Of a stretch of 64,000 nt of DNA, positions 26,486 through 58,542 are shown piece by piece. The notes under the pieces were generated by a model. The model saw only the letters and a program-made list of their open reading frames with translations, was not told the DNA's origin and searched no databases. How positions within the stretch are numbered: position 1 is the first letter of the stretch; every line of letters starts with the position of its first letter. The position numbers and the translations under genes were made by a program. The DNA comes from Candidatus Desulfarcum epimagneticum (GTDB lineage: Bacteria; Desulfobacterota; Desulfobacteria; Desulfobacterales; CR-1), in NCBI GenBank assembly GCA_900659855.1, contig CAACVI010000002.1, positions 1 to 64,000 on the forward strand. The letters are read 5' to 3'.

Positions 26486-26667
26486 CCAATCTTTTTTACG
26501 AGTTTATCATGTTTGAAACCCGGCCCATATTAGGCCCATCCCATGACACGGTCAAGTAAAAAGCATGGGGCCGGAATCTGATCCGGGAAATATGCCCATG
26601 CCTGATTTCCCGGCACGCCCGCAGGGGCAGGCCCCTGTGCCTGCCCTCACGTCTACCCGCGCGTATA

Positions 26668-26873
26668 TTTTTAATCACGCCGGAATGGCATTGAAATCGT
26701 AGGGGCGAAAAATTTTTCGCCCCTGCCCGCCATTTAATCACACCGGAATGGAATTTCGCCGATAATGTGGATTCCGCAAAATCATAAGATCATAAAATCG
26801 TCAAATTTCAGATATAAAATCCTTCCTACAAATCCGTTGACGTTTCTCCATGAGTTTGCCTATACTTGTGCGA
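26668..26873 (+). repeat. Left flanking direct repeat of the CRISPR-Cas island (decayed repeat / 33-bp palindromic pseudo-spacer / decayed repeat / promoter)
   Basis: It begins with a decayed CRISPR repeat (26668-26697, 24 of 30 bases identical to the array consensus). A 33-bp pseudo-spacer follows (26698-26730) containing a perfect 22-bp palindrome (26702-26723, GGGGCGAAAAA and its complement). A second decayed repeat (26731-26760, 23 of 30) and about 110 bp of unique sequence ending in a promoter complete it. The same order with closely similar sequence is at 41075-41276, after the array. Confidence 0.85.
26837..26866 (+). promoter_or_regulatory. Sigma70-like promoter of the cas effector operon
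   Basis: TTGACG (26837-26842) and TATACT (26861-26866), 18 bp apart, about 47 bp upstream of the chosen cas5 ATG. It lies inside the left flanking repeat, and the identical element recurs at 41244-41273. Confidence 0.7.
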
Positions 26874-26912
26874 TTGGAAAATAAAAAAATTTTGAAAGGA
26901 TTCGGCGCCATT

Positions 26913-27491
26913 ATGTATGTTGTCAATTATCGAGGCCCCTTTGGATTTATTAAACCTTGGACTGCGGTAAGGGACATTGAGACTTTTAGCCAACAGTTTT
27001 TAACCCCTTCCATAGTCGCGGGAATTGAAAGGAAATTATTCCCCGATCTTTTGCATGAGCCATACGATTTGTACAAGATTAAAAGTCACAGGCTGTCTTA
27101 CAAACAAATTTCTCATCAGCAGGAGCAGACTCAGCCCAGGGGGTGGAATAAGAAAAACAATCGTTTTTGCAGACCATATGCCATACTGGTTCGAGGCGTT
27201 TTGATAGAGCCTGATTTATATCTTGGATTTGATAATGAAAAAGACGCCATCCATGCCGCAAAACAGCATATATGCCTTTGCAGGAATGAAGACATACTAT
27301 TCCCCGATGGTTCAATCATTAACATTACTGAAGAAGACTTCGATTCTCAGGAAGGCCCTTTTAATGGTTTTGAGCTGGTATTTGAGCAAAACGATCAGTC
27401 TTTTTTAGTGGGATACAACCGTTTTGATGAGCATAAGCCCATGTATGGATGGCTTAAAATCATCGGCAACCCCGTAAAGCATATATGCTGA
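26913..27491 (+). CDS. cas5: Cas5 family protein of a type I CRISPR-Cas system
   Basis: 192-residue RAMP-fold Cas5. It starts MYVVNYRGPFGFIKPWTAVR and continues FLTPSIVAGIERKLFPD, the place where Cas5 proteins carry their conserved TPSA..GILEAI-like helix. IKSHRLSYKQISHQ and a late glycine-containing YGWLKIIG follow. Cas5 caps the 5' handle of crRNA in Cascade. ATG 26913 is used because the longer ORF start (26850) lies inside the promoter; GAAAGGA precedes it. The stop overlaps cas3. Assignment rests on the N-terminal pattern and on context. It is the first gene of the operon, unusual for cas5. Confidence 0.75.
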   Translation: MYVVNYRGPFGFIKPWTAVRDIETFSQQFLTPSIVAGIERKLFPDLLHEPYDLYKIKSHRLSYKQISHQQEQTQPRGWNKKNNRFCRPYAILVRGVLIEPDLYLGFDNEKDAIHAAKQHICLCRNEDILFPDGSIINITEEDFDSQEGPFNGFELVFEQNDQSFLVGYNRFDEHKPMYGWLKIIGNPVKHIC

Positions 27492-29653
27492 TTATGGATA
27501 TTTGTCCTCATATAAAAGCAAAAGGCTCTCCCGAGTTCACAACCTTATACGCCCATCTTTGCCATGTTGAATCAGCAATTGAAAAATTTGCCGAATGTTT
27601 GGATTTTGATGTTGCCATTGCAAAAAAAGGAGCGGTTTTTCATGATATTGGAAAAGCAAGCACGGTTTTTCAAAAAAGGCTTGTGGGCGGATATAGAATG
27701 GGGCAGTCAACATTCCGCCATGAAATCGCTTCCTGCTTTTTTATTTCCCTGATCAGTGAAAAAGATCAGCCCGCGCTGATTGAAATGATCATTGCCCACC
27801 ACAAATCAATTGAAGGGGATAAAAATTTTAAGGGAATACTTGATTTGGAGGAACATGAGGGCGATATTTTTGAGTCTCATATCAAGGACTGGGATGTCTG
27901 GAAACCAGACGTTTTAAAAATACTTTCCGCCTTTGGTATAAAAACCAGGGACATTTCTCGCTCCGAAGCCCATGCCAATTATCTTGAAGTTTTAAATTAC
28001 TGCGAAAAAAGGATCGAGGACTGTGGGTATTCAAGGTGGCGGGGTCTTCTTATGTCTGCGGATCATTTCGCTTCGGCCTTGTCTGAATCGACAGCGGACT
28101 ATTTAAAAAACACATTTAAAAATCCGATTCTGGATTTTTACAGCAGAAAATCGGAGCTTTATCCCCTGTCATTGAAAAAAGCCACATCCAAAAAAAAACA
28201 CACTATTGTCGTGGCATGCACAGGCGCGGGAAAAACAGATTATCTTTTTAGGCGATGCAAAGGCCGAGTATTTTACACGCTTCCATTTCAGGCGTCAATA
28301 AACGCCATGTATCAGCGGGTTAAAAAAGATTTGTCTCCTTCAAATCCGGGACTGGATATTCGGATACTTCATTCCGCTTCAAAAATAGCGGTCAATGACG
28401 AATTACAGGAAGACATTGCTTTACAACGGCTCATCGGCTCAAGCATTAAAATTTTAACCCCATGGCAATTGGCCTCTATTGTTTTCGGCACAAGGGGCTT
28501 TGAATCTCAAATTGAGGACATTAAAGGGTGCGATGTCATTCTTGATGAAATTCACACTTACACTGGCGTGTCAAAGTCAATCGCCTTGAAAATTGTGGAA
28601 GCATTGAATTATTTGGGTTGTCGCATCCATATCGGCACTGCAACCATGCCCACCTCATTATACGAACAAATAATCGCGTTGCTGGGCGAGGATTTCATTG
28701 AGCAGGTTTCTCTTGACGAATCAGAACTTAAAAAATTTGATCGGCATAGACTTTTTAAAATCAATTCATGGGATGATTCAGATGAAATCATCTCTCATGC
28801 TATCGAAAAAAAGCAAAAGATATTGATTGTTTGCAACCGGATAGAATCGGCTCAAAGTGTTTTTTTCCGGGTTAAAAATTTGTTTCCTGATATTCCATCC
28901 ATGCTGATTCACAGCAGATTTAAACGCGGAGATCGGCATGAAAAAGAAAAGAAACTGTTGGGTCTTGATGAAAAGGGACGGCCCACGGGCGAGTTTAACA
29001 CTTCGCCGGACGCTTGCATCGTGGTTTCCACACAGGTTGTGGAAGTCAGTCTGGATATCAGCTTTGACCTCATGATTACCGAAACAGCCCCCATTGATTC
29101 ATTGATTCAGCGTTTTGGGAGAGTCAATAGAAAAAGATCCCCGTCCGCCATAGGTCTTCATAAACGGGTCTATTTAATCGCCCCGCCGGATGATGAAAAG
29201 GATTGCAAACCGTATGAATTGGCGACGCTGAAAGACAGTTTTGAAGTTTTGGATCACGATGGCATTCTTCACGAATCTGACTATCAAAGAAAGATAGACC
29301 ATGTCTTTCCGGTCATATCAACCATAGACATAGAAACCCACACGGCGTTTAAAGGAGACGGCCGATGGAACATTGAAGCCCTGACCCACAGAAATGATTC
29401 CATTTTGGTTAAACTCCTTGAAATTGAGAGCGCAACCGCTATTATTGAATCTGACTCTGAAGCTTACAGAAATGCGACATGCGAGGAGCAGGCTCTCATT
29501 GAGATACCGGTGAAATATTATTCAGTTAACGATTTTTACCAGCTTGGTTGCGGCGGTTATCCATTTGTTATACCGGATCAAGGATATTCGGATGAGATGG
29601 GTCTCGAAATCAACAAGGCCAAAGAACATCAAACAGACTTAAGCTTCATATAA
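27485..29653 (+). CDS. cas3: Cas3: HD nuclease fused to DExH helicase
   Basis: 722 residues. The HD nuclease domain has AHLCHVE, AVFHDIGKA (HD about 53-54), and IIAHHKS (about 98-104). The superfamily 2 helicase has Walker A VACTGAGKTDYLF (about 240-252), DEIHTYTG (motif II, about 353), GTATMPTSLYE (motif III) and the C-terminal QRFGRVNRKR (motif VI, about 541). It unwinds and degrades target DNA after Cascade recognition. It is on the short side for an HD-helicase Cas3 and complete. An alternative start is ATG 27494. Confidence 0.93.
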   Translation: MLIMDICPHIKAKGSPEFTTLYAHLCHVESAIEKFAECLDFDVAIAKKGAVFHDIGKASTVFQKRLVGGYRMGQSTFRHEIASCFFISLISEKDQPALIEMIIAHHKSIEGDKNFKGILDLEEHEGDIFESHIKDWDVWKPDVLKILSAFGIKTRDISRSEAHANYLEVLNYCEKRIEDCGYSRWRGLLMSADHFASALSESTADYLKNTFKNPILDFYSRKSELYPLSLKKATSKKKHTIVVACTGAGKTDYLFRRCKGRVFYTLPFQASINAMYQRVKKDLSPSNPGLDIRILHSASKIAVNDELQEDIALQRLIGSSIKILTPWQLASIVFGTRGFESQIEDIKGCDVILDEIHTYTGVSKSIALKIVEALNYLGCRIHIGTATMPTSLYEQIIALLGEDFIEQVSLDESELKKFDRHRLFKINSWDDSDEIISHAIEKKQKILIVCNRIESAQSVFFRVKNLFPDIPSMLIHSRFKRGDRHEKEKKLLGLDEKGRPTGEFNTSPDACIVVSTQVVEVSLDISFDLMITETAPIDSLIQRFGRVNRKRSPSAIGLHKRVYLIAPPDDEKDCKPYELATLKDSFEVLDHDGILHESDYQRKIDHVFPVISTIDIETHTAFKGDGRWNIEALTHRNDSILVKLLEIESATAIIESDSEAYRNATCEEQALIEIPVKYYSVNDFYQLGCGGYPFVIPDQGYSDEMGLEINKAKEHQTDLSFI

Positions 29654-29664
29654 AAGATATTATT

Positions 29665-31062
29665 ATGATTTCAATCAATGTCGGACGCGCGTTTTTAAAG
29701 GCTTATAACACAAAGAATAACACATCATATTCTTCCAGAGAATTTTTTGAGAAAATATTTTTTGGTCTTTTTTTTAATCATCCCAAATATATGATATGGC
29801 CCACAAATTCGCCTTTTGTGCAGATGGAAAAGGGACAAAAACCCCATCTTCTGAGCCCGGAAGAAAGACGTGAAAAGTTGAATAAACTTTTTGTCAAGGC
29901 AAAGACAGAAACCCCTGATTCCAGCTTCGCTATCGGTTTTCCCGCGTCGGAACTAAAAGAATTCGCGACTACATCCGGCCTTGTGAGCGACATGGAAATT
30001 CCTGTTGATGAATCTGATATTTATTATTCATGGATCGGTTCCGGACTGGGGATTGGAGTCTCGGGCGGAGTTTGTATATTCTTTACTGAACCTGAAATTT
30101 TGCTGAAAACTTTTGAAGGCTGGCATGTTTATAGAAAATTTTTGAATGATGAGACTTTAAAAAAACTCGCCCCAAATAAAATAAATAGCTGGAATGGGCA
30201 ATGGCTCAATTATGTTTATCAAAAAAGGCATAAAAAAAATTTCGATTTTACCGCTTTAGACAATCAAAACCTCTTTAAACATGGTAAAGATGGGACAATC
30301 GTCATTGAAACGATTAAATGGAGTAAATTGTTTTTCAATATTTCCAGGAAATTTCCGGATCAAACCCTCATGGGATATGTTTACAGCCTGGGGCAGACAA
30401 ACAAAACATTGGGTTTTTTCCCATTTCATTTTAAGCAGGCTCAAACGATTAAACATTTTTACAAAATTCTTTTTGGCGAGAATAATGCTATCCGGGACAG
30501 CTCAGCCTATGAAAATTTGTATGGCGCCCATATAAAAAGGGCTTGCGAATTGGGGTCAATAGGACTTCATGCCCTGCAACCTGCTGGGTTGAAACAATAT
30601 TTTAAAGAAGGGAAAAAACCTAATTTTAAAAAATTAAAGGTTGCGCCCAAAAAGGGGGAGGGCCACAATGAATATAGAAGCAGGAGTGAGAACGCGTCAT
30701 TAAAGGACAGGGAAAAAGTTGTTTTATTTAGAACCTATAAGGCATGGTTGGTTGCTATGATAACAAAAAACAAAGAAGATATGGTTGACTACACAAGGGA
30801 CGTGGCGCTGGCTCTGCATGCCTACAAAGCGAAAGCCACCAAGAATGTCGCTAAAAATCTTATTGAAAAGGAGCTTCTTGTCGCAAAATCCAGGAAGAAA
30901 TTTATAGAGGCCCTGGTGGAAATCGTGCAGGATGCCGGCAAAGAGGATTTGGAAACCTATAAAGAACTGAAAAATCGGGTTCATCTTATGACAGCGGAGG
31001 ATTTTGGGTATTTTGTCGTTCTTCTCAGATTCGACTATGCCTATGAAGAAAGAAATGTTTAA
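29665..31062 (+). CDS. Probable Cas8-like large subunit of type I Cascade (subtype unassigned)
   Basis: 465 residues, AT-rich, between cas3 and cas7, the place of the large subunit. It starts MISINVGRAFLKAYNTKNNT and continues with SREFFEKIFFGLFF, a run of aromatic/basic residues, and a C-terminal helical half (LFRTYKAWLVAMITKNKEDM, ALALHAYKAKATKNVAKNLI, KKFIEALVEIVQDAGKEDLE) that could stand in for a small subunit. I do not recognise it as Cas8a, Cas8b, Cas8c or Csd1-like from motifs; no zinc Cys cluster is visible. Call rests on size and position. Confidence 0.6.
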   Translation: MISINVGRAFLKAYNTKNNTSYSSREFFEKIFFGLFFNHPKYMIWPTNSPFVQMEKGQKPHLLSPEERREKLNKLFVKAKTETPDSSFAIGFPASELKEFATTSGLVSDMEIPVDESDIYYSWIGSGLGIGVSGGVCIFFTEPEILLKTFEGWHVYRKFLNDETLKKLAPNKINSWNGQWLNYVYQKRHKKNFDFTALDNQNLFKHGKDGTIVIETIKWSKLFFNISRKFPDQTLMGYVYSLGQTNKTLGFFPFHFKQAQTIKHFYKILFGENNAIRDSSAYENLYGAHIKRACELGSIGLHALQPAGLKQYFKEGKKPNFKKLKVAPKKGEGHNEYRSRSENASLKDREKVVLFRTYKAWLVAMITKNKEDMVDYTRDVALALHAYKAKATKNVAKNLIEKELLVAKSRKKFIEALVEIVQDAGKEDLETYKELKNRVHLMTAEDFGYFVVLLRFDYAYEERNV

Positions 31063-31082
31063 CCATGTGTCAGGGAGAGAAT

Positions 31083-32153
31083 ATGCATACGATTTATGTT
31101 AGAACTTTAAAAAGGGCGGATCACACTGTTTTTTGTGTTTCGGACGGGCAGAAAACGTATTTCGATCCTCAGTTTAACCGCGCAATCCCTTATTCCAGCG
31201 GTCAGCAAGTAAAACGCTCAATCATGGACAGGCTGTCAACAGAGTTGAATGAGACTCCGGCGCCGGTGACATTTTTGTCTGATGTGACTAAAAAGAATGA
31301 AATTACAGAAGGCGAGGTGTTTGGGACATGTGACCCATCTTATTTTGACCAGTTGCTTGGCGGATGGATGAAAGCCGTCAAAGACGGGAAAGAGAAAACC
31401 GTAAAACGAAGGAGCCCTTTTTCCATATCCGCAATGAGAGCTTTGCATCCATTGCTTGCGGGTGTTCATAAAGAGAATATTACTTTTGACAGAAGCGGAC
31501 GATCAAACAACAAAGTGATTGTAAGAGATCCCAAAGGGAACGAACTCTCCGAAGATGATATTAAAAATTTGCTTCAGGATAAGGATAGAAGTTTGGTCAG
31601 AAAATGGATCCCGAACAATAAAACTGTGACCGGCTTGTTTGTTCAGGATATCGCCATAGACTTAAGAAGGCTGTTTTGTGTAAACTTGGATCCTTATGAG
31701 CCTGAAATAAATCAAAAAACTGAAGAAAAGTTAAAGGAAAACGGCTGGATTGAGACAAAAAATATTTTTGGGGATTGCCTCCTGGCCCCCATAGAGACAA
31801 GGGAAAAACTTATCCCTGCAATTTCAAAAGCAATTTTCAATTGGCAAATCACCTCAAATCAATCCAGAACATTTAGCCTTATGGAAACTCTTGCTGTCGC
31901 AATAAGTCATAATGCCAACAAAATTGCAAGCAGCATCCGGGGAAAATTAAGCGAAGAGAATGAGAATAGAGCTGTTCCTGTGATCGAGGAACATCTCGAC
32001 GGGGTTGACATGTTCATAACACTTGCGGCGGATGGCTACGTCATCACAAATTCGGAAAAAGCCGACGCGCTGGACTTGGCCGAACAGAACATTTTGGAAC
32101 GAATGGAAAAATTTGACTATACAAATCAATTGAATGGCCCTGGCCAAGTATAA
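31083..32153 (+). CDS. cas7: Cas7 family backbone protein
   Basis: 356 residues starting MHTIYVRTLKRADHTVF; AGGGAGA precedes this ATG, so it is preferred to 31065. NRAIPYSSGQQVKRSIMDRL corresponds to the early conserved helix of Cas7/DevR-type RAMP proteins. FSISAMRALHPLLAG and VTGLFVQDIAIDLRRLFCVN follow, with late NWQITSNQSRTFSLMETLAV. Cas7 forms the crRNA-binding filament of Cascade. It lies 20 bp after the large subunit and 23 bp before cas6. Confidence 0.78.
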   Translation: MHTIYVRTLKRADHTVFCVSDGQKTYFDPQFNRAIPYSSGQQVKRSIMDRLSTELNETPAPVTFLSDVTKKNEITEGEVFGTCDPSYFDQLLGGWMKAVKDGKEKTVKRRSPFSISAMRALHPLLAGVHKENITFDRSGRSNNKVIVRDPKGNELSEDDIKNLLQDKDRSLVRKWIPNNKTVTGLFVQDIAIDLRRLFCVNLDPYEPEINQKTEEKLKENGWIETKNIFGDCLLAPIETREKLIPAISKAIFNWQITSNQSRTFSLMETLAVAISHNANKIASSIRGKLSEENENRAVPVIEEHLDGVDMFITLAADGYVITNSEKADALDLAEQNILERMEKFDYTNQLNGPGQV

Positions 32154-32176
32154 TATTTTTATCGTGAGGAAATGTT

Positions 32177-32974
32177 TTGCGAATTTTAATAACAGCGGAA
32201 AGTGAAAAACCCTCTTTTTTTCCATACAACTATCAATATCCATTACATTCGGCGCTATACTCCCTTATAAATGAGTCTTCGTTTGAATATTCCAGTTTTT
32301 TGCATGATCGTGGCTACATAAGGGATGGAATCAATAAAAAATTCAAATTTTTTACCTTTTCAAAACTTAAATTTTTCCCAACACAAAGGTCCGAAGATGG
32401 TTTTCATAATGTCAAAAAAATTCAGTTTGTATTTGCTTCCTCAGTGAATGAAAGTCTGAAGCATTTAGTCCTGGGAATTTTTTCCAACCAAAGAATCAAA
32501 TTTAGTTTAAATGGCCAAAAATCCATTTTTGATGTGTTCAACGTAGACATACAACCGGAACCGACTTTTGGTGAACATGGAAAGTTTATTTGTCTTTCTC
32601 CGATTTCGGTTACAACGGTAAGGATAGATGAAAATGGAAAACGAAAACAGCATTTTTTAAACTACATGATCCCGGAAGAGAGAGAACATTTTATTGAGAA
32701 CATTAAAAAAAATTTGGTCAATAAATACGAAACGATTAATGGGATTAAATATCAAAGCTTGGATTCCTCGTTTAATTTTCACTTTGACGTTGATTATATT
32801 TCAAGGCGGAAGGGCAATATTTCAAAGTTAATAAATTTTAAAAATGGGATTAAAATAAAAGCCATTGAGGCGCCATTTGGCGTTCAGGCTGATCCTGAAT
32901 TAGTAAAAATTGGTTACGAATGCGGATGGGGTGAAAAAAATAGCGCTGGTTTTGGTTGCGTTCAAAAAATTTGA
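32177..32974 (+). CDS. cas6: Cas6 endoribonuclease
   Basis: 265-residue RAMP protein that cuts pre-crRNA within the repeat. The family's N-terminal pattern is seen as FFPYNYQYPLHSALYSLINE (about 14-33, His 24 could be the catalytic base). The signature glycine-rich C terminus is GYECGWGEKNSAGFGCVQKI. The start is TTG 32177 with GAGGA six bases upstream; the only nearby ATG (32172) hits a stop after five codons. It ends the effector half of the operon. Confidence 0.9.
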   Translation: MRILITAESEKPSFFPYNYQYPLHSALYSLINESSFEYSSFLHDRGYIRDGINKKFKFFTFSKLKFFPTQRSEDGFHNVKKIQFVFASSVNESLKHLVLGIFSNQRIKFSLNGQKSIFDVFNVDIQPEPTFGEHGKFICLSPISVTTVRIDENGKRKQHFLNYMIPEEREHFIENIKKNLVNKYETINGIKYQSLDSSFNFHFDVDYISRRKGNISKLINFKNGIKIKAIEAPFGVQADPELVKIGYECGWGEKNSAGFGCVQKI

Positions 32975-33407
32975 ATCTCGAGAAAAAATAAAACAAAAGG
33001 TGATCACTTTACGCGATTATCAAAAACGAAAGGGCTGAATTTTAAAAAAATGTAGTTAACGGACCGAGGTGAACCAGCGGTCTCATTATTTCCAATAGTT
33101 TAAAAAAATTATATAAAATCAAGTTGAAAGGGGATCCGCGAAAAACGGGAATGGGATTATAAAAGGGAGATCGCTCCTGTCCCCGGGCTTAAATATTCCC
33201 TCAAAAAAGCCGTAAAAAAAATGAGGTGCGATAAATTTCAAGAACAAATCCGCAACATTCTGTTTTTATATTTTTTTTCAATAAAAAAGGAAATTTAACA
33301 GTTACCTTTTGTCAAACGATAACTCCCCTTTTTGTTTCAGGCAAAGTATAACAAAAGGTAATTAAAAAACAGCGGTCCCGTAGGCCGGGTTGAGGGAGAT
33401 GACCGTA
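32975..33407 (+). promoter_or_regulatory. 433-bp AT-rich gap between effector and adaptation genes, with inverted repeat
   Basis: No reading frame with coding character is seen. It contains a palindrome-like AAAGG/TGATCACTTT at about 32996-33010. It also has an 11-bp perfect inverted repeat, TTACCTTTTGT (33302-33312) and ACAAAAGGTAA (33351-33361), about 45 bp ahead of the AlbA_2 gene. The repeat could be an operator or the ends of a tiny inserted element. This gap marks the change in base composition inside the cas locus. Confidence 0.45.
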
Positions 33408-34631
33408 ATGAACAAAAAAGAGCTTTTAGAGCTCATTGAAAAGGGCGAATCCAGTTTTGTGGAATTCAAGTCGGACACGCCGGATATCACTGCGGAAACA
33501 ATCGGGGAATATGTGGTCTGCTTTGCGAATTCAAAGGGCGGAAAAATTCTGCTCGGGGTTGAGGATGACGGCGCGATAACAGGCTTGCAGGGCAGGTTCC
33601 CCGAATACGGCAAATGGATATCCGACGCTGTTCAGGGCTGGGCGCATCCCAATATTATCGTCGACTATGAAGAGACGCCTGTGGGAGAAAATTTGCGGGT
33701 CGCCGTGATCACTGTGCCGATGGGCGTCGCCAAACCGTATTCCAAGCGCAAGGGAAAGGACGCAAAGGAGCGTTATTATATTCGCGATGTCACCACTTGC
33801 CGGGAAACAGACAGAGAAGAGCTGAGGCGTTTATTTCAAAGCTCCGGAATGATCCATTATGAAGCGACTCCCGTGCCGAGGTCAAAACCGGAAGACTTGA
33901 ACGAAACGCTGCTTCGCGAGTATTTCAGCCGAATAAGAGATATCGGCTATGATGACAGGTCAAAATGGCTTCGACTTTTGATTGACAACCAGATGCTTTC
34001 CGAAGAAATGGGCGATGTCAATTGCGCCCTGGCAGGGCTTGTTTTATTCGGCAGAAAGGACAGGGTCAAAAGACTCATTCCTCAAAGCGGCGTCACCGCT
34101 GTGGAATATGACTCTCCCGACGCGGATGTGGCGGGGCGTTTTCGAAAAGAAATCAACGGCCCCCTGCTTTCGTCGTTTGAAAGCTCGGGATCCGTCGTTG
34201 AAGAAGGTGTGATTGACCAGGCTGTGAATTTTGTTTTAAGGGTAAGGTCAAAAGAAAGAATTGAAGGGACAAGACGTGTGACTGAATATGCCTATCCCCC
34301 CGGGGTCTTGCGTGAGGTCATTGTCAATGCCGCCGCTCACAGGGATTATACCATCGGCGGGACAAATATCGGCCTTTGGCTCTATCCCGACCGGCTGGAA
34401 GTCGACAGTCCGGGCTCTCTTCCGAACAGCATTACAATAGAACGGATGAAAAACGGCGCCCGGTACCACCGCAATCAAACGATTGTCGAGTATCTGCGCG
34501 ATATGGATTTCATCGAAGGCAGCGGCAGGGGCGTGTCGCGAAAAATCATTCGCGGCATGATTGAACACAACGGCAAGGAGCCGGATTTTGAGCTGAGAGG
34601 CGAATCTTTAAGAGTGACTTTATATGCGTAA
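33408..34631 (+). CDS. AlbA_2 (Schlafen-type) domain protein with C-terminal GHKL-type ATPase domain
   Basis: 407 residues. The N-terminal AlbA_2 domain (about 1-115) has GESSFVEFKSDTPDITAETI, ANSKGGKILLGVEDDGAITG and VPMGVAKPYSKRKG...RYYIRD. The C-terminal half is an HATPase_c_4-type domain (COG2865, often named RecG-like or putative transcriptional regulator) with REVIVNAAAHRDYTIGGTNI (N-box Asn about 307), DRLEVDSPGSLPNSITIERM, and EGSGRGVSRKIIRGM. It stops there; the usual winged-helix tail is absent. ATG 33408 fits GAGGGA. The stop is 2 bp before cas4, so it is translationally linked to cas4-cas1-cas2. Role unknown: regulator of acquisition or accessory defence factor are both possible. 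Confidence 0.85.
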   Translation: MNKKELLELIEKGESSFVEFKSDTPDITAETIGEYVVCFANSKGGKILLGVEDDGAITGLQGRFPEYGKWISDAVQGWAHPNIIVDYEETPVGENLRVAVITVPMGVAKPYSKRKGKDAKERYYIRDVTTCRETDREELRRLFQSSGMIHYEATPVPRSKPEDLNETLLREYFSRIRDIGYDDRSKWLRLLIDNQMLSEEMGDVNCALAGLVLFGRKDRVKRLIPQSGVTAVEYDSPDADVAGRFRKEINGPLLSSFESSGSVVEEGVIDQAVNFVLRVRSKERIEGTRRVTEYAYPPGVLREVIVNAAAHRDYTIGGTNIGLWLYPDRLEVDSPGSLPNSITIERMKNGARYHRNQTIVEYLRDMDFIEGSGRGVSRKIIRGMIEHNGKEPDFELRGESLRVTLYA

Positions 34632-34633
34632 AA

Positions 34634-35143
34634 ATGGGATATGACCCGATGCAAAACCTGGATTTCACCGGAACCCAGATCAACTATTATTTTGTGTGCC
34701 GGCGCAAACTCTGGCTGTTTTCAAAAGACATCCGCTTTGAAAGCGAAAACGAATATGTTCAACTGGGGCGTCTCATTGACGAGCATTCATACAAACGGAA
34801 GAAAAAACAGCTTGAAATCGGCAGAATCAAAATCGATTTCATGGACGGCAAGGGCGTGATCCATGAGGTCAAAAAGTCCAATAAGGTTGAAAAGGCCCAT
34901 ATTTATCAGCTCAAATATTACCTTCTCACACTGGTGAAAATGGGCGCCGCGCATGTGACGGGAGAAATCGACTATCCAAAGCTCAAAAAAAGAAAAACCG
35001 TTCTGCTGGAGCCCGGCGACGAAGAGGAGTTTGAGCGTGTTTTTTCAGACATCCGGGAGATTCTTGACCGGCCGCACCCGCCTGCGGCGGTTAGAAAAAC
35101 CATCTGCGGCAAGTGCGCGTATTATGAATTTTGTTTTGCATAA
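34634..35143 (+). CDS. cas4: Cas4 exonuclease
   Basis: 169-residue RecB-like nuclease with an iron-sulfur cluster. The N-terminal FTGTQINYYFVCRRKLWLFS supplies the first Cys. RLIDEHSYKRKK, KIDFMDGKGVIHEVKKSNKV (catalytic Asp, Glu and Lys of PD-(D/E)xK) and the C-terminal CGKCAYYEFCFA with three Cys follow. Cas4 trims prespacers and selects PAM orientation. It is 2 bp after the AlbA_2 gene and 42 bp before cas1. Start could also be ATG 34649. Confidence 0.93.
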   Translation: MGYDPMQNLDFTGTQINYYFVCRRKLWLFSKDIRFESENEYVQLGRLIDEHSYKRKKKQLEIGRIKIDFMDGKGVIHEVKKSNKVEKAHIYQLKYYLLTLVKMGAAHVTGEIDYPKLKKRKTVLLEPGDEEEFERVFSDIREILDRPHPPAAVRKTICGKCAYYEFCFA

Positions 35144-35185: not shown

Positions 35186-36175
35186 ATGAAAAAATCTCTA
35201 TACTTTTTTTCAAACTGCGATATCAGAAGAAAAGACAACACCCTGATGTTTGAAATCAAAGGGGAAAAGAAATATCGCCCCATTGAGGCCATGGATGACA
35301 TTTTCCTGTTCGGAGAGCATACCCTGAACACAAAACTGCTCAATTTTTTGGGGAAACACAAGGTCCCTGTTCATGTGTTCAATTATTACGGATTCTATTC
35401 CGGGTCTTTTTTCCCACGGGAGCGCCATCTTTCCGGCCATGTTAAAATCCGGCAGGCCCGGCATTATCTGGACCCTGAAAAAAGAATGCGTATAGCCTAT
35501 GAATTCCTGAACGCCGCCGCCTCCAATATCCTTTCCAACCTGACCTATCAAAAAAACAGGGGAAGGGATGTGGCCGGAAATATTTCGAAAATCAAAGCGT
35601 TGAAAAAGAAGCTGAAAGAAGCGGATTCGATTCCGCGTTTGATGGGAATGGAGGGAAATATCCGGGATTTATACTATTCCGCTTTTGAGGAGATCATTCA
35701 GAATAAAGCCGAATTTCAAAAGCGTGTGAAAAGGCCCCCGGACAATTTTGTCAACACCCTGATCTCATTCGGCAACTCGCTTGTTTACACGTCGGTTCTT
35801 TCGGAGATTTACAAAACCCAGCTTGATCCGGTCATCAGTTTTCTCCATGAGCCGGGATACCGCCGCTATTCACTGGCCCTGGATATAGCCGAGATTTTCA
35901 AGCCCATTCTTCTTGACAGGATGATGTTCGCCATGATCAATAAGAAGGAGATCACGGAAAAGGACGCGGAAAAAAAGTTGGGCCATTGTTATCTTAAAGA
36001 CCGGGGAAGAATGAAGTTTTTAAGAAAATACGACGAAAGGCTGAAAACAACCATTAAACACAAGAAACTCAATCGGCATGTTTCTTACAGAAGGCTGATC
36101 CGGCTTGAGTGTTACAAAATCGTCAAGCATATTCTGGGCGAAGAAAAGTATGCCGGCTTTAAAATGTGGTGGTAA
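35186..36175 (+). CDS. cas1: Cas1 integrase (type I)
   Basis: 329-residue spacer integrase. Metal-site residues are in MGMEGNIRDLYY (Glu about 156), FLHEPGYRRYSLALDIAEIF (His 221, Asp 233, Glu 236), and the C-terminal domain is intact. N-terminal YFFSNCDIRRKDNTLMFE and GEHTLNTKLLNFLGKHKVPV are the usual beta-sandwich pattern of type I-B-like Cas1. It is followed 2 bp later by cas2. Confidence 0.95.
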   Translation: MKKSLYFFSNCDIRRKDNTLMFEIKGEKKYRPIEAMDDIFLFGEHTLNTKLLNFLGKHKVPVHVFNYYGFYSGSFFPRERHLSGHVKIRQARHYLDPEKRMRIAYEFLNAAASNILSNLTYQKNRGRDVAGNISKIKALKKKLKEADSIPRLMGMEGNIRDLYYSAFEEIIQNKAEFQKRVKRPPDNFVNTLISFGNSLVYTSVLSEIYKTQLDPVISFLHEPGYRRYSLALDIAEIFKPILLDRMMFAMINKKEITEKDAEKKLGHCYLKDRGRMKFLRKYDERLKTTIKHKKLNRHVSYRRLIRLECYKIVKHILGEEKYAGFKMWW

Positions 36176-36177
36176 TC

Positions 36178-36459
36178 ATGTATGTGATCGCGATGTACGA
36201 CATCAACACTGAGACAAAGGCCGGCAGGAAGAGATTAAGGCAAATATTTAAACTGATGAAACAGTATCTGATTCGTATCCAGAATTCGGTTTTCGAGGGG
36301 GAAATTTCAAAGGCGAAATTTGAGGAAATGAAACTGAAAACCCAAGACATTATCGACAGCGCGGTAGATTCCGTTATTTTTTTCAAAAGCCGCGACATCA
36401 AGTGGATGGACAAAGAAATCTGCGGCCTTGAAAAAGACGACGCAGAGCGCTTTTTGTAA
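36178..36459 (+). CDS. cas2: Cas2
   Basis: 93-residue ferredoxin-fold partner of Cas1. MYVIAMYDINTETKAGRKRL carries the conserved first-strand Asp, then MKQYLIRIQNSVFEGEI and a C-terminal region. ATG 36178 is chosen over GTG 36166 because it gives the canonical start and avoids overlap with cas1. It ends 135 bp before the first repeat. Confidence 0.93.
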   Translation: MYVIAMYDINTETKAGRKRLRQIFKLMKQYLIRIQNSVFEGEISKAKFEEMKLKTQDIIDSAVDSVIFFKSRDIKWMDKEICGLEKDDAERFL

Positions 36460-36594: not shown

Positions 36595-39500
36595 CTTTTA
36601 ATCAGACCAGAATGGAATTGAAACTTCTCCGCAGTTTGGGCATTTTTTCGCATCATCGTTTCTTTTAATCAGACCAGAATGGAATTGAAACGCGGAAAGG
36701 GAAAAGACCCCGGGGACGCGTTCCAGCTTTTAATCAGACCAGAATGGAATTGAAACGAAAAGGCTGGCCGAGGAGGGCCGCCTGGTCTCCCGCGCTTTTA
36801 ATCAGACCAGAATGGAATTGAAACGGAATGGGAGGACAAGGAAGGCGTCAAGCGGAAAACCTTTTAATCAGACCAGAATGGAATTGAAACTTTTAAGCTC
36901 AATCTTACTCAACAATGACGCGATTTCTTTTAATCAGACCAGAATGGAATTGAAACAGGGACTTATGAATGACCTTGACAAGGAATTTGTGGACTTTTAA
37001 TCAGACCAGAATGGAATTGAAACCTGAACGCTGGGCCAATGATGTCGAACAAAGATTTGACTTTTAATCAGACCAGAATGGAATTGAAACTTAAATACAC
37101 GAGGTATGCCCCCAGTGCGGCGACAGAACTTTTAATCAGACCAGAATGGAATTGAAACTTCTCAGGCGGACACATCGGGCGGGAACGCCCTGACCTTTTA
37201 ATCAGACCAGAATGGAATTGAAACGGTTTTGGTTGATTAGGTTATCGCATAATCTGCCCTTCTTTTAATCAGACCAGAATGGAATTGAAACGGATTTGTT
37301 TGGGTATTTATCTACAACAACATAGGACTTTTAATCAGACCAGAATGGAATTGAAACTCAATGTACATGTCTTCAATTTGGTACATTAGCCGCCCTTTTA
37401 ATCAGACCAGAATGGAATTGAAACACCCCAAAAACAAACGCACAAAACGGAATCGAAATTCTTTTAATCAGACCAGAATGGAATTGAAACTAGCCCCCCC
37501 AGGGTGTCACCGCACAGCGTTTTAGTCTTTTAATCAGACCAGAATGGAATTGAAACACCTATATAGTTGTCATGGGCTGTAGCGTTTTGGTCCGCTTTTA
37601 ATCAGACCAGAATGGAATTGAAACATGGACTACAGCTCGAAAAAGGAACAAAACATCAAGGCTTTTAATCAGACCAGAATGGAATTGAAACTGATTAAGC
37701 CGTTGCTCGAATCGGTGATTTTATCCCTTTTAATCAGACCAGAATGGAATTGAAACTGCTGAATCTTCCGCAAGAACGCCTGAGCCAACGCCCTTTTAAT
37801 CAGACCAGAATGGAATTGAAACTGTGGTTTTATATGTGTGTTTCAGTATTCGGCTCACTTTTAATCAGACCAGAATGGAATTGAAACTCGTTTCCCCTTC
37901 CATCTTCCAGTCTCCCAGTGACTCTTTTAATCAGACCAGAATGGAATTGAAACGACCGACGGCAATACCAAAAATATCGTAAGGTCTTCTTTTAATCAGA
38001 CCAGAATGGAATTGAAACCAGCCTCCCCGAATCGGAGAAGATCGCGCAGGAACACTTTTAATCAGACCAGAATGGAATTGAAACTTTCCTGAAGTTCTTC
38101 TGAAACCCTGGCGAGCCGTTTCCTTTTAATCAGACCAGAATGGAATTGAAACTTGATGGGAGTGGGGATGTATGAAAGGGATTAATTTCTTTTAATCAGA
38201 CCAGAATGGAATTGAAACGGTCAAGGGCGCGGTTGTGGATGATCTGGACGTGGGCTTTTAATCAGACCAGAATGGAATTGAAACATTCGAGTTGACGCAA
38301 AGTCGGCGTTTGCATTACCTGCTTTTAATCAGACCAGAATGGAATTGAAACTGCAATGCCCAAAATGCAAAGAAGAGCAATACTGCCCTTTTAATCAGAC
38401 CAGAATGGAATTGAAACTGGGAATTGATCCGGTCACCGGCCTTTCGCGTCCTGCCTTTTAATCAGACCAGAATGGAATTGAAACACAGATGCCGGTTACT
38501 GGCCGCTGTTTTTTTTCGTCCTTTTAATCAGACCAGAATGGAATTGAAACTACGCTTTTGCCGAATGAAATGGTCAAGCTTGGGGGGCTTTTAATCAGAC
38601 CAGAATGGAATTGAAACCTCCACCATGGCATACCGCCTCCCCCCGTTGGGATCCTTTTAATCAGACCAGAATGGAATTGAAACCGATCTACATGGGCGAA
38701 TCCATCACGGCGGCCGCCATTCTTTTAATCAGACCAGAATGGAATTGAAACTGGATCAAGGGCGCGGTGACGTTTGCGGGCGTGGTCCTTTTAATCAGAC
38801 CAGAATGGAATTGAAACCCGGCACGGATTACCCGGGGGACAGAACGGTTTACTTTTAATCAGACCAGAATGGAATTGAAACGGTTTTGACCCTGGCCAGC
38901 TCCGGGGATCGAATCGTTTCTTTTAATCAGACCAGAATGGAATTGAAACTCACGTCGAAAATCGCGTCATTGTTGAGTAAGATTCTTTTAATCAGACCAG
39001 AATGGAATTGAAACATGTCTTTGAGGCCGGGGACGCCCAGGACGCGACGCTTTTAATCAGACCAGAATGGAATTGAAACCTTTCATCAATTGCGAATAAA
39101 TTTCAAGGGTTTTTTCTTTTAATCAGACCAGAATGGAATTGAAACCTTTTTGGCCCCGGGCCACATTGGTCAGGTGTTCAACCTTTTAATCAGACCAGAA
39201 TGGAATTGAAACAACATTGATCCGAAGCGAACCATGGACGCAGACCGGCTTTTAATCAGACCAGAATGGAATTGAAACTCGTCACGTTGCGCCGAACGAG
39301 CCTAAACCGTGTGCCGCTTTTAATCAGACCAGAATGGAATTGAAACCAGTGTACTCCACCGCGCTATCCGTCGGATAATTCCGTCTTTTAATCAGACCAG
39401 AATGGAATTGAAACACTTGTCCGCCTCCACCATCATTGCCGCATGGGCTCCTTTTAATCAGACCAGAATGGAATTGAAACACTATTTCGCCGCGCTGCTC

Positions 39501-41104
39501 AAAATCTTTTCGCGGGCGTTGCCTTATACGGATTCCGGGTCAGCGACTTTTAATCAGACCAGAATGGAATTGAAACCCGGATAGCGGCTAATGAAGGTAT
39601 GGCCGCTATGGCACTTTTAATCAGACCAGAATGGAATTGAAACCGTCACTTGTCGTTGTTTCAAACATTTTGATGACCGCTTTTAATCAGACCAGAATGG
39701 AATTGAAACTAAAGAGTATAATCCCTTTCAAAACAAGAAGTTAACCTTTTAATCAGACCAGAATGGAATTGAAACAATTAAGCCAAAGCGTCCCGTCATT
39801 CCGCAAAACACTTTTAATCAGACCAGAATGGAATTGAAACATTTTTGCCCCCACCCCCCCCAGCCGGTCTTATGGGACTTTTAATCAGACCAGAATGGAA
39901 TTGAAACCCCTGTATCCGGGTAATCCCCCACGCGCAACAAGTACTTTTAATCAGACCAGAATGGAATTGAAACTGTTACAGCAAATCATTCCGCCATCAA
40001 AGTTTGTGGACTTTTAATCAGACCAGAATGGAATTGAAACAAAAACCAGGCGTGGGAGAAACAATCAATTCCAAGTCCTTTTAATCAGACCAGAATGGAA
40101 TTGAAACTTGAGAACAGAGAAAACGGTTTCACGGTTTGACGCCTTTTAATCAGACCAGAATGGAATTGAAACCGACAAAACCGTCGCCGGTGTCCGCCTG
40201 GGCGAACCCTTTTAATCAGACCAGAATGGAATTGAAACTATGGCGAAAAAATGATAATGTTCGCCGTCTTAAAACCTTTTAATCAGACCAGAATGGAATT
40301 GAAACTGATGTAATCCGCGCGCATTTTTCCATACGCCGCCGCTTTTAATCAGACCAGAATGGAATTGAAACATTGTTGGTTGATTCATGATATGCCGTGA
40401 CTTTAGCCTTTTAATCAGACCAGAATGGAATTGAAACCCACGACGGTTCCATCTGGGAGGTTGTCGATTTCTGCCTTTTAATCAGACCAGAATGGAATTG
40501 AAACCGCAGAAAACGTCTACAGCGACTTCCACATCGTGGGCTTTTAATCAGACCAGAATGGAATTGAAACCCACGACGGTTCCATCTGGGAGGTTGTCGA
40601 TTTCTGCCTTTTAATCAGACCAGAATGGAATTGAAACCGCAGAAAACGTCTACAGCGACTTCCACATCGTGGGCTTTTAATCAGACCAGAATGGAATTGA
40701 AACTTGTTGAAGAGTGACAGCGTTTTTTTCTTTGCTTGCCTTTTAATCAGACCAGAATGGAATTGAAACCCATGCGAAAAGTAATACCCGTCGACAGACT
40801 TGACAACTTTTAATCAAACCAGAATGGAATTGAAACCGGCTCAAGGAAGAAAAAACGCGCACAAAAATGTCCGGCTTTTAATCAGACCAGAATGGAATTG
40901 AAACCTGTCAGTTTGGATCCATCCCCCAAGGTGATGGCCCCCTTTTAATCAGACCAGAATGGAATTGAAACCCGTGTCAATCCCCGTTCCACCTTCAACG
41001 TCAAGCGTCTTTTAATCAGACCAGAATGGAATTGAAACCGATGCCTTATTTATATTCGCCGGCGAGTGTGTATACTTTTAATCAGACCAGAATGGAATTG
41101 AAAC
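36595..41104 (+). CRISPR. CRISPR array: 68 repeats of 30 bp, 67 spacers
   Basis: The repeat begins CTTTTAATCAGACC and ends GGAATTGAAAC (the 3' ATTGAAAC handle of Cas6-processed type I arrays). I counted 68 repeats, all apparently identical except the one at 40807, which has AATCAAACC for AATCAGACC. Spacers are about 34-38 bp except a single 66-bp spacer at 39481-39546. A two-unit block is duplicated at 40438-40673. The leader-proximal end is next to cas2, and the only variant repeat and the decayed terminal repeat (41138-41167) are at the distal end, so orientation is plus. Spacers are otherwise diverse, which points to long activity. Confidence 0.99.
40438..40673 (+). repeat. Tandem duplication of two spacer-repeat units inside the array
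   Basis: The 37-bp spacer at 40438-40474 is identical to that at 40571-40607. The 36-bp spacer at 40505-40540 is identical to that at 40638-40673. The 133-bp block has duplicated by recombination between repeats or replication slippage. The copies show no difference, so the event is recent. Confidence 0.95.
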
Positions 41105-41276
41105 CGTAAGGGCGAAAAAATTTTCGCCCCTGCCCACCGTTGAATCACACCGGAATGGAATTTGACCGACAATGTGGATTCAGGAAAATCATAAGATCAT
41201 AAAATCGTCAAATCTCAGGTACAAAATTCCTCCCACAAATCCGTTGACGTTTCCCCATGAGTTTGCCTATACTTGT
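41075..41276 (+). repeat. Right flanking direct repeat of the CRISPR-Cas island
   Basis: It starts with the last intact repeat (41075-41104). The 33-bp pseudo-spacer (41105-41137) carries the near-palindrome GGGCGAAAAAATTTTCGCCC. A decayed repeat (41138-41167, 23 of 30 matches) and about 110 bp closely similar to 26761-26873 follow, including the same promoter. It is in direct orientation relative to the left copy. Confidence 0.85.
41244..41273 (+). promoter_or_regulatory. Duplicated sigma70-like promoter after the array
   Basis: TTGACG (41244-41249) and TATACT (41268-41273), 18 bp apart, the same as the cas promoter. It now faces the decayed AlbA_2 gene and the glycosyltransferase pair beyond it. 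Confidence 0.6.
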
Positions 41277-41339: not shown

Positions 41340-41997
41340 ATGAAATGGTCGGCTGAAAAAGTTCGCGAGGCGGTCAGAAATGGGGAGAATTCGTTTGTCG
41401 AATTCAAAACCCTGCCGGTTCGTCCCGAGAGCGTCGCAAAGGAACTGACGGCCTTTTCCAATTTTAAGGGAGGCGTCATTTTTTTGGGCGTTTCGGATGA
41501 CGGCGCCATCGCCGGGGCGAATCAGGAAAACCTTGAAGAATGGGCCATGAACATCGCCTCGGACCTGGTGGAGCCTGTGGTGATCCCTTCTTATCAGGAA
41601 GTGAAAATGGATTCCGGAACTGTGGCGGTGGTGGAGGTGGATTCGGGCGTGTCCAAACCCTATGCGCTTAAAAAAGGGCCTCACCGGACTTATTACATCC
41701 GTGTGGGCTCCACCAGCAGGATCGTGGACCGGGATCAATGGCCCCGCCTCTCCCGACCGGATTGAGGTGATCAGCCCGGGCAGTCTTCCCAACACAGTGA
41801 CCGTTGAAAGAATGAAGGCGGGCTGCCGGGTGGCGCGGAATCAGATTTTGGTTCAGACTCTTAAAGATTATGGCCTGGCGGAGCATATGGGGATGGGGAT
41901 ACGCAACAAGATCATCAAAGGGATGCTGGAGTTCAACGGAAAGGAGCCGCTGTTTATCGCCGATGAGTATCAGCTTCGGGTTGTGATTCAAAAATGA
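41340..41997 (+). pseudogene. Decayed AlbA_2/GHKL-ATPase gene
   Basis: The first frame (41340-41765) encodes an AlbA_2 domain: ENSFVEFKTLPVRPESVAKE, NFKGGVIFLGVSDDGAIAGA, DSGVSKPYALKKGPHRTYYI. At about 41755 the reading shifts by one, and the other frame (to 41997) gives the end of the ATPase domain: DRIEVISPGSLPNTVTVERM, HMGMGIRNKIIKGMLEFNGK. About 180 residues between the two parts, including the GHKL N-box, are missing compared with the intact paralogue at 33408-34631. It is an internal deletion with frameshift. The copy is related but not closely similar, so it is not a simple recent duplicate. Confidence 0.85.
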
Positions 41998-56832: not shown

Positions 56833-58542
56833 ATGAAAATTTATTTAAAAGAAAAAATAGGCAACCCGGCCCTTTTCACTGGAAGAAAAAGAGAGCTGGA
56901 CTCTTTGCTGAAATGGGTGGAGGGGATTAAGCCGGAAATATCCAAAAGCAAAGCCATTATTTCCCGCAGGAAAACCGGGAAATCGGCTTTAATGCAGCGG
57001 CTTTTCAATATCATATTTCACCAAAGCGGCCAGGTGGTTCCTTTTTATTTTGAAATACGGGAAACGCCTCAATGGATAGGCGGATTTGCCAGGGAATTTT
57101 TTTTCACATTCGTAAGCCAATATATTGCCTTTAAATCAAGAAAGCCCGAATACCTGAAATATCGAAATAATTATGATCTGTTAATTAAAGCGGCGAAAAA
57201 AGAGGGGCTCGATCATTTGACTCGACATATCGAAGATTTCGAATATTCCGAAAACAGGGAATATTTTGACGAATTGTGGGAAATAGCCCGGGAGGCCCCA
57301 AGAATCATAGCCCAATACAAAGACGAGCGCGTTCTCCAGATGATTGACGAATTCCAGTTCATAAACAGATATATTTTCAGGGATAAAGCATGCAAAGATC
57401 GCTTATCGGAGCTTGCCGGAAGCTACCTGCATACTTGCGAATACAAAAATGCTCCCATGCTCGTATCCGGGAGCTGGGTGGGATGGCTGATGGAGGATCT
57501 GCAAAAAATGCTGCCCGGCAGATTCATTATTGACGATTTCGGCAATATGCCTAAAAATGAAGCCATTGAGATGGCGCTCAATTATTCCGAAATTATGCAG
57601 GTTCCCACAAATTATGACAATGCATGCGTCATCGCGGAACTGACGGAAGGAAACCCTTTTTATATCAGTTCCCTTTTTCAGTCTGTTTACAGAGATAAAG
57701 ATTTCACCGCAGAGCAGGGAATAATCGATGTTCTTGATTTCGAAACCCGCCACAAAAGCGGCGCCATACGCGGGACATGGATGGAATATATACTTTCCGC
57801 TACTGACAGGATAAACGATATAAACGGAAAGAAAATGATTTTATATATTTGTCAAAAGAAAGAAGTCACCCGGGATGAAATAGCGGAAGCTCTGAAAATT
57901 GATGTGAAAAACGGAGAATTGGAAAAACGACTCAAAGCTTTTGTCAAAGCCGATATAATCAGCCAGAGCAGCAGTATCAAGTATCATGCTGTCAGGGATA
58001 ATATATTCGACAAAGTATTCAGGGGTTTTTATCAGGAAGAGATAGACAATTTCAATCCGGAAAAAATAAAAGACGAATACAAAGCCTTGTATAAAGAAGT
58101 ATTGGGGAGATTCAACAAATACAAAGGCGAGTTTTCCGAATATGTCATCATGAATCGCCTCAAACATCGGGCATACAAGCAGAACGATCTTTATATATCC
58201 ATGATGAAAAATCTGCCCGATGATTTTCAGTTTGCAGAGTATTTCACCATATGGTCATACAGCGCCTCTCCCGCTCATAAAAAAGAACTGCAGGTGGATG
58301 TGTTTGCCAAAGCGACTGATGACCAATACGCCCTTATCGGCGAAGTGAAAAACAGGAAGAAAAAATTCTCCCTGACAGAGGCCAAAGCTTTTTTCGCAAA
58401 AGCTTCGGAAGTCAAAGAACTGGAGACTCTTGAAAAGGTTGTTTTTTTTGTTTTTTCCACCGCGGGCTTTTACAAAACCGCCATTGATTTTTTTAAGGAT
58501 AACGGGATCGCGTGGAGCGCCGACAAACGATTTTTTGAGTAG
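56833..58542 (+). CDS. Archaeal-type ATPase with C-terminal nuclease-like domain (tandem copy 1)
   Basis: 569 residues. N-terminal FTGRKRELDSLLKWVEG and Walker A ISRRKTGKSALMQRL (about 43-57) are typical of ATPase_2/COG1672-like STAND-related ATPases. Walker B is ERVLQMIDEFQFINRY (about 158-173). AELTEGNPFYISSLFQSVYR is the sensor-2/GNP-type motif. A winged-helix stretch (ICQKKEVTRDEIAEALKI) follows. The C-terminal 80 residues (KKELQVDVFAKATDDQYALI, GEVKNRKKKFSLTEA) fit a PD-(D/E)xK fold (DUF234-like). Function unknown. It is followed 9 bp later by a near-identical copy. Confidence 0.82.
   Translation: MKIYLKEKIGNPALFTGRKRELDSLLKWVEGIKPEISKSKAIISRRKTGKSALMQRLFNIIFHQSGQVVPFYFEIRETPQWIGGFAREFFFTFVSQYIAFKSRKPEYLKYRNNYDLLIKAAKKEGLDHLTRHIEDFEYSENREYFDELWEIAREAPRIIAQYKDERVLQMIDEFQFINRYIFRDKACKDRLSELAGSYLHTCEYKNAPMLVSGSWVGWLMEDLQKMLPGRFIIDDFGNMPKNEAIEMALNYSEIMQVPTNYDNACVIAELTEGNPFYISSLFQSVYRDKDFTAEQGIIDVLDFETRHKSGAIRGTWMEYILSATDRINDINGKKMILYICQKKEVTRDEIAEALKIDVKNGELEKRLKAFVKADIISQSSSIKYHAVRDNIFDKVFRGFYQEEIDNFNPEKIKDEYKALYKEVLGRFNKYKGEFSEYVIMNRLKHRAYKQNDLYISMMKNLPDDFQFAEYFTIWSYSASPAHKKELQVDVFAKATDDQYALIGEVKNRKKKFSLTEAKAFFAKASEVKELETLEKVVFFVFSTAGFYKTAIDFFKDNGIAWSADKRFFE

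Follow-up and report, generated by a model that had tools for sequence, protein, structure and literature searches.

In at least 1017 taxa, Schlafen RNases with a minimal histidine kinase are reported to serve BREX/BR systems as back-up effectors; they fuse a Schlafen AlbA_2 domain to a GHKL/histidine-kinase-like domain, carry a C-terminal wHTH and lie inside a defence operon (PMC12839542). The same AlbA_2 fold is found in the tRNases SLFN11/13/14 and SAMD9. In SLFN13, E205/E210/D248 form the catalytic triad (PMC5862951, PMC8789055), yet SLFN5 keeps the triad and shows no RNase activity, which counts against reading the triad alone as an RNase (PMC8789055). For CRISPR, a hypothesis of 2012 outlined in general terms a link between immunity and suicide or dormancy (PMC3506569). 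Accessory RNases in cas operons are familiar from type III, where the ancillary enzymes (Csx1/Csm6, Can2) carry CARF or SAVED domains. Synthesis of cyclic oligoadenylate is not known from types I-B and I-G. Our literature search for a CRISPR-linked Schlafen, with preprints and most subscription papers outside its scope, found none. Among PDB entries, CbCash (9ylu, 9ylv, 9ylx) matches the AlbA_2 profile (E 1.7e-11) but is only 297 aa long; if its name denotes a CRISPR-associated Schlafen, the novelty of the gene described below is lower.

We compared these systems with a type I-B locus (PADLOC) in the window, the whole 64,000-nt stretch of Candidatus Desulfarcum epimagneticum DNA analysed here. 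The effector genes cas5, cas3, cas8b, cas7 and cas6 (26850-32974, + strand) are followed on the same strand by a 407-aa Schlafen AlbA_2/GHKL gene (33408-34631), cas4 (34649-35143), cas1 (35186-36175), cas2 (36166-36459) and an array of at least 66 repeats (36596-41107; repeat CTTTTAATCAGACCAGAATGGAATTGAAAC). The first-pass annotation had placed an AlbA_2/GHKL gene inside the cas locus, and the Pfam domains, with cas6 on one side and cas4 on the other, bear this out. The gene has an ATG start in an open frame that begins at TTG 33390. Its upstream gap, counted from the end of cas6 at 32974, is 433 bp as first described; the 2 bp then given for the gap to cas4 apply only if cas4 starts at 34634, where its ORF opens, and the start at 34649, which is backed by orthologs (MQNLxFTGTQ), leaves 17 bp. 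A separate promoter and terminator isolating the gene from cas4 had been named as evidence against the coupling of the two genes. In our sequence scan, the gap after cas6 held no + strand promoter-like site and neither of the two flanking gaps a + strand terminator-like site, and Rfam gave no match within the locus. The gene is probably transcribed together with cas4-cas1-cas2 in the window. Downstream of cas6 lies a conserved non-coding element of about 60 nt (33305-33372, + strand), common to G149 and G049 and present once in the genome, whose inverted arms TTACCTTTTG...CAAAAGGTAA run to its end at CAAAAGGTAA; it is a possible promoter or operator.

The protein contains an SLFN_AlbA_2 domain (33447-33806, + strand; Pfam residues 14-133, E 3e-19) and a GHKL ATP-binding domain, HATPase_c_4 (34359-34622, + strand; residues 318-405, E 7e-21). 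A single-sequence phmmer search against the PDB gave no match, and a profile search was used instead. In the alignment of this profile HMM with PDB sequences, E14 (33447-33449), E19 (33462-33464) and D53 (33564-33566), together with the neighbouring K21 (33468-33470), all encoded on the + strand, fall on E205/E210/D248 and K212 of rat SLFN13 (numbered with a chain offset of 13, counted from the printed profile alignment). The triad is kept in 35-36 of the 36 members of the ~400-aa subfamily, most of which are 401-415 aa long. The GHKL N-box, E303/N307/H311, begins just ahead of the HATPase_c_4 domain; it is intact here and present in 57/57 homologs. An AF2 model built from a shallow alignment is of moderate quality (mean pLDDT 71), with good domains and an unreliable linker (residues 145-226). 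Fold matches to residues 1-150 are the SAMD9 tRNase domain (Z 11.7) and SLFN13/11/14 (Z about 10.7); those to residues 221-407 are histidine-kinase ATPase domains (Z about 10.7). The best full-length structural match is DIP2311 (PDB 3lmm, Z 20.2), which likewise has AlbA_2-like and HATPase_c_4-like parts but is longer and uncharacterised. Given the triad and these Schlafen and kinase fold matches, we predict from sequence and model that the protein is a Schlafen-type metal-dependent RNase with an ATP-binding switch, for which tRNA is the putative target. Calling it nucleic-acid-binding, as had been done, agrees with the AlbA_2 domain but undersells a protein whose RNase triad is intact. A PADLOC 'pAgo' match was set aside: what it matches in a long model are Schlafen and HATPase-like portions, and it is no evidence of an Argonaute. 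Schlafen-fused Argonautes have been described (PMC6299218).

The known systems differ from this protein in several respects. No winged-helix domain was found in the 407 aa (Pfam; no domain follows HATPase_c_4), unlike in the BREX/BR effectors and in its relatives from type I-G and III loci. The annotation had correctly noted that the usual tail of the family is absent; most of the ~400-aa subfamily also lacks it, which makes the absence a subfamily trait and nothing special to this gene. The core-gene linkage of BREX is missing as well, the neighbours being I-B cas genes. Vertebrate Schlafens have a two-lobed core, whereas the window protein has one AlbA_2 lobe, no helicase and a GHKL domain instead. 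It resembles the CARF/SAVED RNases as a predicted accessory RNase in a cas operon, but neither a CARF nor a SAVED domain was found in it, and the sensor would be the GHKL ATPase.

Six orthologs, the window copy included, are 83-88% identical, and the next relatives reach at most 44%. Four of the six adjoin cas genes (window, G149, G049 and G186), and two lie outside CRISPR loci, one on a short contig of UBA3084 (L011) and one in G082. The order in G149 is cas6, a coiled-coil gene, our gene and then cas4-cas1-cas2-array. In G049 the gene, cas4-cas1-cas2 and a 52-repeat array are intact, with cas6 and cas8b interrupted, cas3 frame-broken and a transposase-like DNA insertion at the same boundary. 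In G186, on a contig that ends 267 bp upstream of the gene, cas4 and most of cas1 have been lost, perhaps recently; the intact gene is left with the cas1 remnant, cas2 and one repeat as neighbours. None of the six copies is truncated, and every pair gives a dN/dS of 0.08-0.13 (about 0.09 overall, and 0.09-0.11 for pairs involving decayed cas loci): the gene is held by purifying selection. As a separate observation, an insert of ~250 bp with inverted ends TAACCGTTCACGGTT...AACCGTGAACGGTTA lies between the gene and cas4 in G149 (L009 11225-11487) and is absent from the window; a related insert occupies the same gap in G049 (L072 15181-15440).

In the sister I-B loci of G244, G322 and G357, cas6 adjoins cas4 and the gene is missing, which suggests that this adjacency is the older state and that the gene was inserted. 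Because the four cas-linked copies group together (89/94 in the protein tree and 100/100 in an unrooted DNA tree), we prefer one insertion over separate arrivals; a single insertion followed by descent is the simplest history, and a larger quick tree does not decide. In the effector-gene tree the window groups with G149 and G049 (100/100), and this clade is compatible with the adaptation-gene tree (AU p 0.21). An exchange of the adaptation module relative to the effector module, hinted at by dS differences, was unsupported by the same test. The annotation had also proposed that the gene travels with the adaptation genes, and here our results disagree. The carriers are one clade of the effector tree, the G186 copy outlives cas4 and most of cas1, and related cas4-cas1-cas2 modules in G191, G378 and G244, with cas1 77-80% identical, lack the gene. 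As the modules of G191 and G378 stand with other effectors, the gene is not inseparable from the adaptation cassette. The two loci concerned (L088/L089) join the window's cas4-cas1-cas2 lineage to quite different effectors, a case of module exchange.

Failure of the association to recur in other genomes had been named as grounds for refutation; recurrence is seen both among the close orthologs and in a distant branch of the family. We surveyed 146 genomes of one order, that of the window's organism, pairing Cas1 and HATPase_c_4 matches by position. Beyond two I-B cases, a family member lies within ~2 kb of Cas1 in G042 and G127 (type I-G) and in G110 (an I-F variant), while 100 other Cas1 neighbourhoods of the order (1.006 Mb) contain none. 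With 327 HATPase_c_4 matches in about 640 Mb (genome sizes estimated from a rounded table), chance alone would put about 0.55 in the surveyed Cas1 neighbourhoods, where five loci from three lineages were observed. The rough Poisson P for three lineages is about 0.02, under a null that is too lenient because defence genes cluster. The gene does not occur throughout its subtype, as a core cas gene does, being missing from G244, G322, G357 and the 100 other Cas1 loci.

A comparison of the G127 protein with 389 genomes gave, with that protein counted, eight members of at least 65% identity; seven lie in CRISPR loci and one outside. In four type I-G loci the gene is 5, 5, 12 and 20 bp upstream of a cas4-cas1 fusion, a III-B member is about 1 kb upstream of cas4-cas1-cas2, and the remaining CRISPR members belong to one III-A and one III-C locus, with no cas1 within the stretch read. 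Ten relatives of this branch at about 50% identity have no cas genes or arrays nearby. At their C-terminus, the branch proteins that were tested have a Fic-like/winged-helix domain. Members from I-G, III-B and I-B loci retain the whole triad, but its third position is changed from D to N in III-A and III-C and from D to P in I-F, which raises the possibility that some copies in CRISPR loci bind without cutting. G114 (L259) has a further 400-aa member in a type III locus, beside cas6 and an array; a near-identical N-terminal fragment of this full AlbA_2 gene lies a few kb from it. On the family tree the CRISPR label requires about six changes, which suggests that CRISPR loci recruited the family several times, twice directly upstream of cas4-cas1. 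Viral contigs gave no close relatives and nine distant ones by profile search, and plasmids gave a best identity of only 38%, with none for the I-G branch.

The family also has other defence partners. The G082 ortholog (83% identical) follows a TrlF ATPase by 15 bp at the end of a cluster of HKD-Snf2 helicase, IIG-like methyltransferase and TrlF genes. TrlF is directly upstream in 14 of the 57 homologs (L076, L095, L262, L260, L263 and nine others), and TrlF-AlbA_2/GHKL looks like a recurrent two-gene cassette resembling a defence system. At the window's CRISPR locus TrlF is absent, and cas6 stands upstream instead. By analogy, the CRISPR cases look like the TrlF/BREX effector module placed in another host system.

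Of the two functions first suggested, regulation of spacer acquisition and back-up defence, the latter fits better. We consider it moderately likely that the predicted Schlafen-GHKL RNase serves as an accessory back-up effector, whose gene entered the cas6-cas4 interval of one I-B lineage and has been conserved there by purifying selection. The AlbA_2 core with its E-E-D triad would be a metal-dependent RNase, probably acting on tRNA, which the GHKL ATP-binding domain would restrain or switch. Upon a trigger that could be infection, or CRISPR immunity being active or failing, host and phage tRNA would be cut and translation would stop. The effector, similar to those known from BREX loci and to those next to TrlF genes, would thus form a second line beside CRISPR. 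The presence of the gene in only a minority of Cas1 loci counts against this reading.

The most serious competitor, which we regard as rather unlikely, is that a mobile defence gene landed where it does least harm, at the boundary of the effector and adaptation genes, and works alone with no tie to CRISPR. Such a passenger would explain the two close orthologs outside cas loci (L011, G082), the intact G186 copy beside cas1/cas2 remnants, the decayed second family member just past the array, the coiled-coil gene and the transposase-like DNA inserted at the same boundary in G149 and G049, respectively, and the background of 327 HATPase_c_4 matches in 146 genomes. It sits poorly with the placement of all I-B and I-G cases on the same strand upstream of cas4/cas1, with two separate branches of the family having taken that slot, with the seven of eight I-G/III members in CRISPR loci and with the excess over about 0.55 expected. 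Close spacing to cas4 (2-17 bp here) and to cas4-cas1 in I-G (5-20 bp) is also what one would see for a regulator that binds DNA or RNA and, with ATP, controls the expression or activity of Cas4-Cas1-Cas2, as is the survival of the gene, cas4-cas1-cas2 and the 52-repeat array in G049 despite broken cas6, cas8b and cas3. A plain regulator needs no RNase triad, however, and the triad is conserved; the related adaptation modules of G191, G244 and G378 do without the gene, G186 retains it without cas4 and most of cas1 (again, perhaps a recent loss), and no cas1 was seen around the III-A and III-C members within the sequence read. We find regulation of spacer acquisition improbable. Least probable by far is that the gene supplies the toxin of a stand-alone toxin-antitoxin or addiction module that keeps the locus stable: the predicted RNase would stop translation, and small nucleotidyltransferase, ORF6N or HepT-like genes occur near some relatives, but no conserved small partner gene adjoins the I-B orthologs.

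Returning to the back-up effector, the common position before cas4-cas1 makes co-expression with adaptation likely. It is tempting to speculate, though we hold the idea only tentatively, that in types I-B and I-G a predicted tRNase co-expressed with Cas4-Cas1(-Cas2) acts as a switch to dormancy or suicide that is linked to spacer acquisition and would buy time during spacer capture or kill the cell if acquisition or interference fails. One operon would then join two antiviral strategies, adaptive CRISPR memory and Schlafen-type translation shut-off, the latter also used by vertebrates. Since at least two CRISPR subtypes place a predicted RNase gene immediately ahead of the genes for spacer acquisition, the proposed coupling of CRISPR to suicide or dormancy (PMC3506569) becomes directly testable through a small, well-defined protein. 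Even if the link is only positional, this is a clear case of an effector type common to TrlF, BREX and CRISPR loci.

The 3.26-Mb genome has only four genes of the AlbA_2/HATPase_c_4 family, two of them in this CRISPR locus. The second (41340-41997, + strand), just past the array, is a truncated pseudogene with an internal deletion and two frames; it belongs to a different subfamily and is nearest to Bacillota copies (L012/L013). The whole cas-array locus is flanked by a direct repeat of 207 nt (89%; 26663-26869 and 41070-41276) that carries degenerate CRISPR repeats. Ahead of cas5 it has the look of another array end, and it may be a trace of insertion or duplication of the locus. Within the array, the spacers at 36901-36926 and 38959-38984 are exact reverse complements over 26 nt, as if one target had been captured in both orientations, and a 133-nt segment of two repeat-spacer units is exactly duplicated (40408-40540 and 40541-40673). 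Further downstream, two near-identical ATPase-like genes of 569 aa stand in tandem (56833-58542 and 58552-60261).
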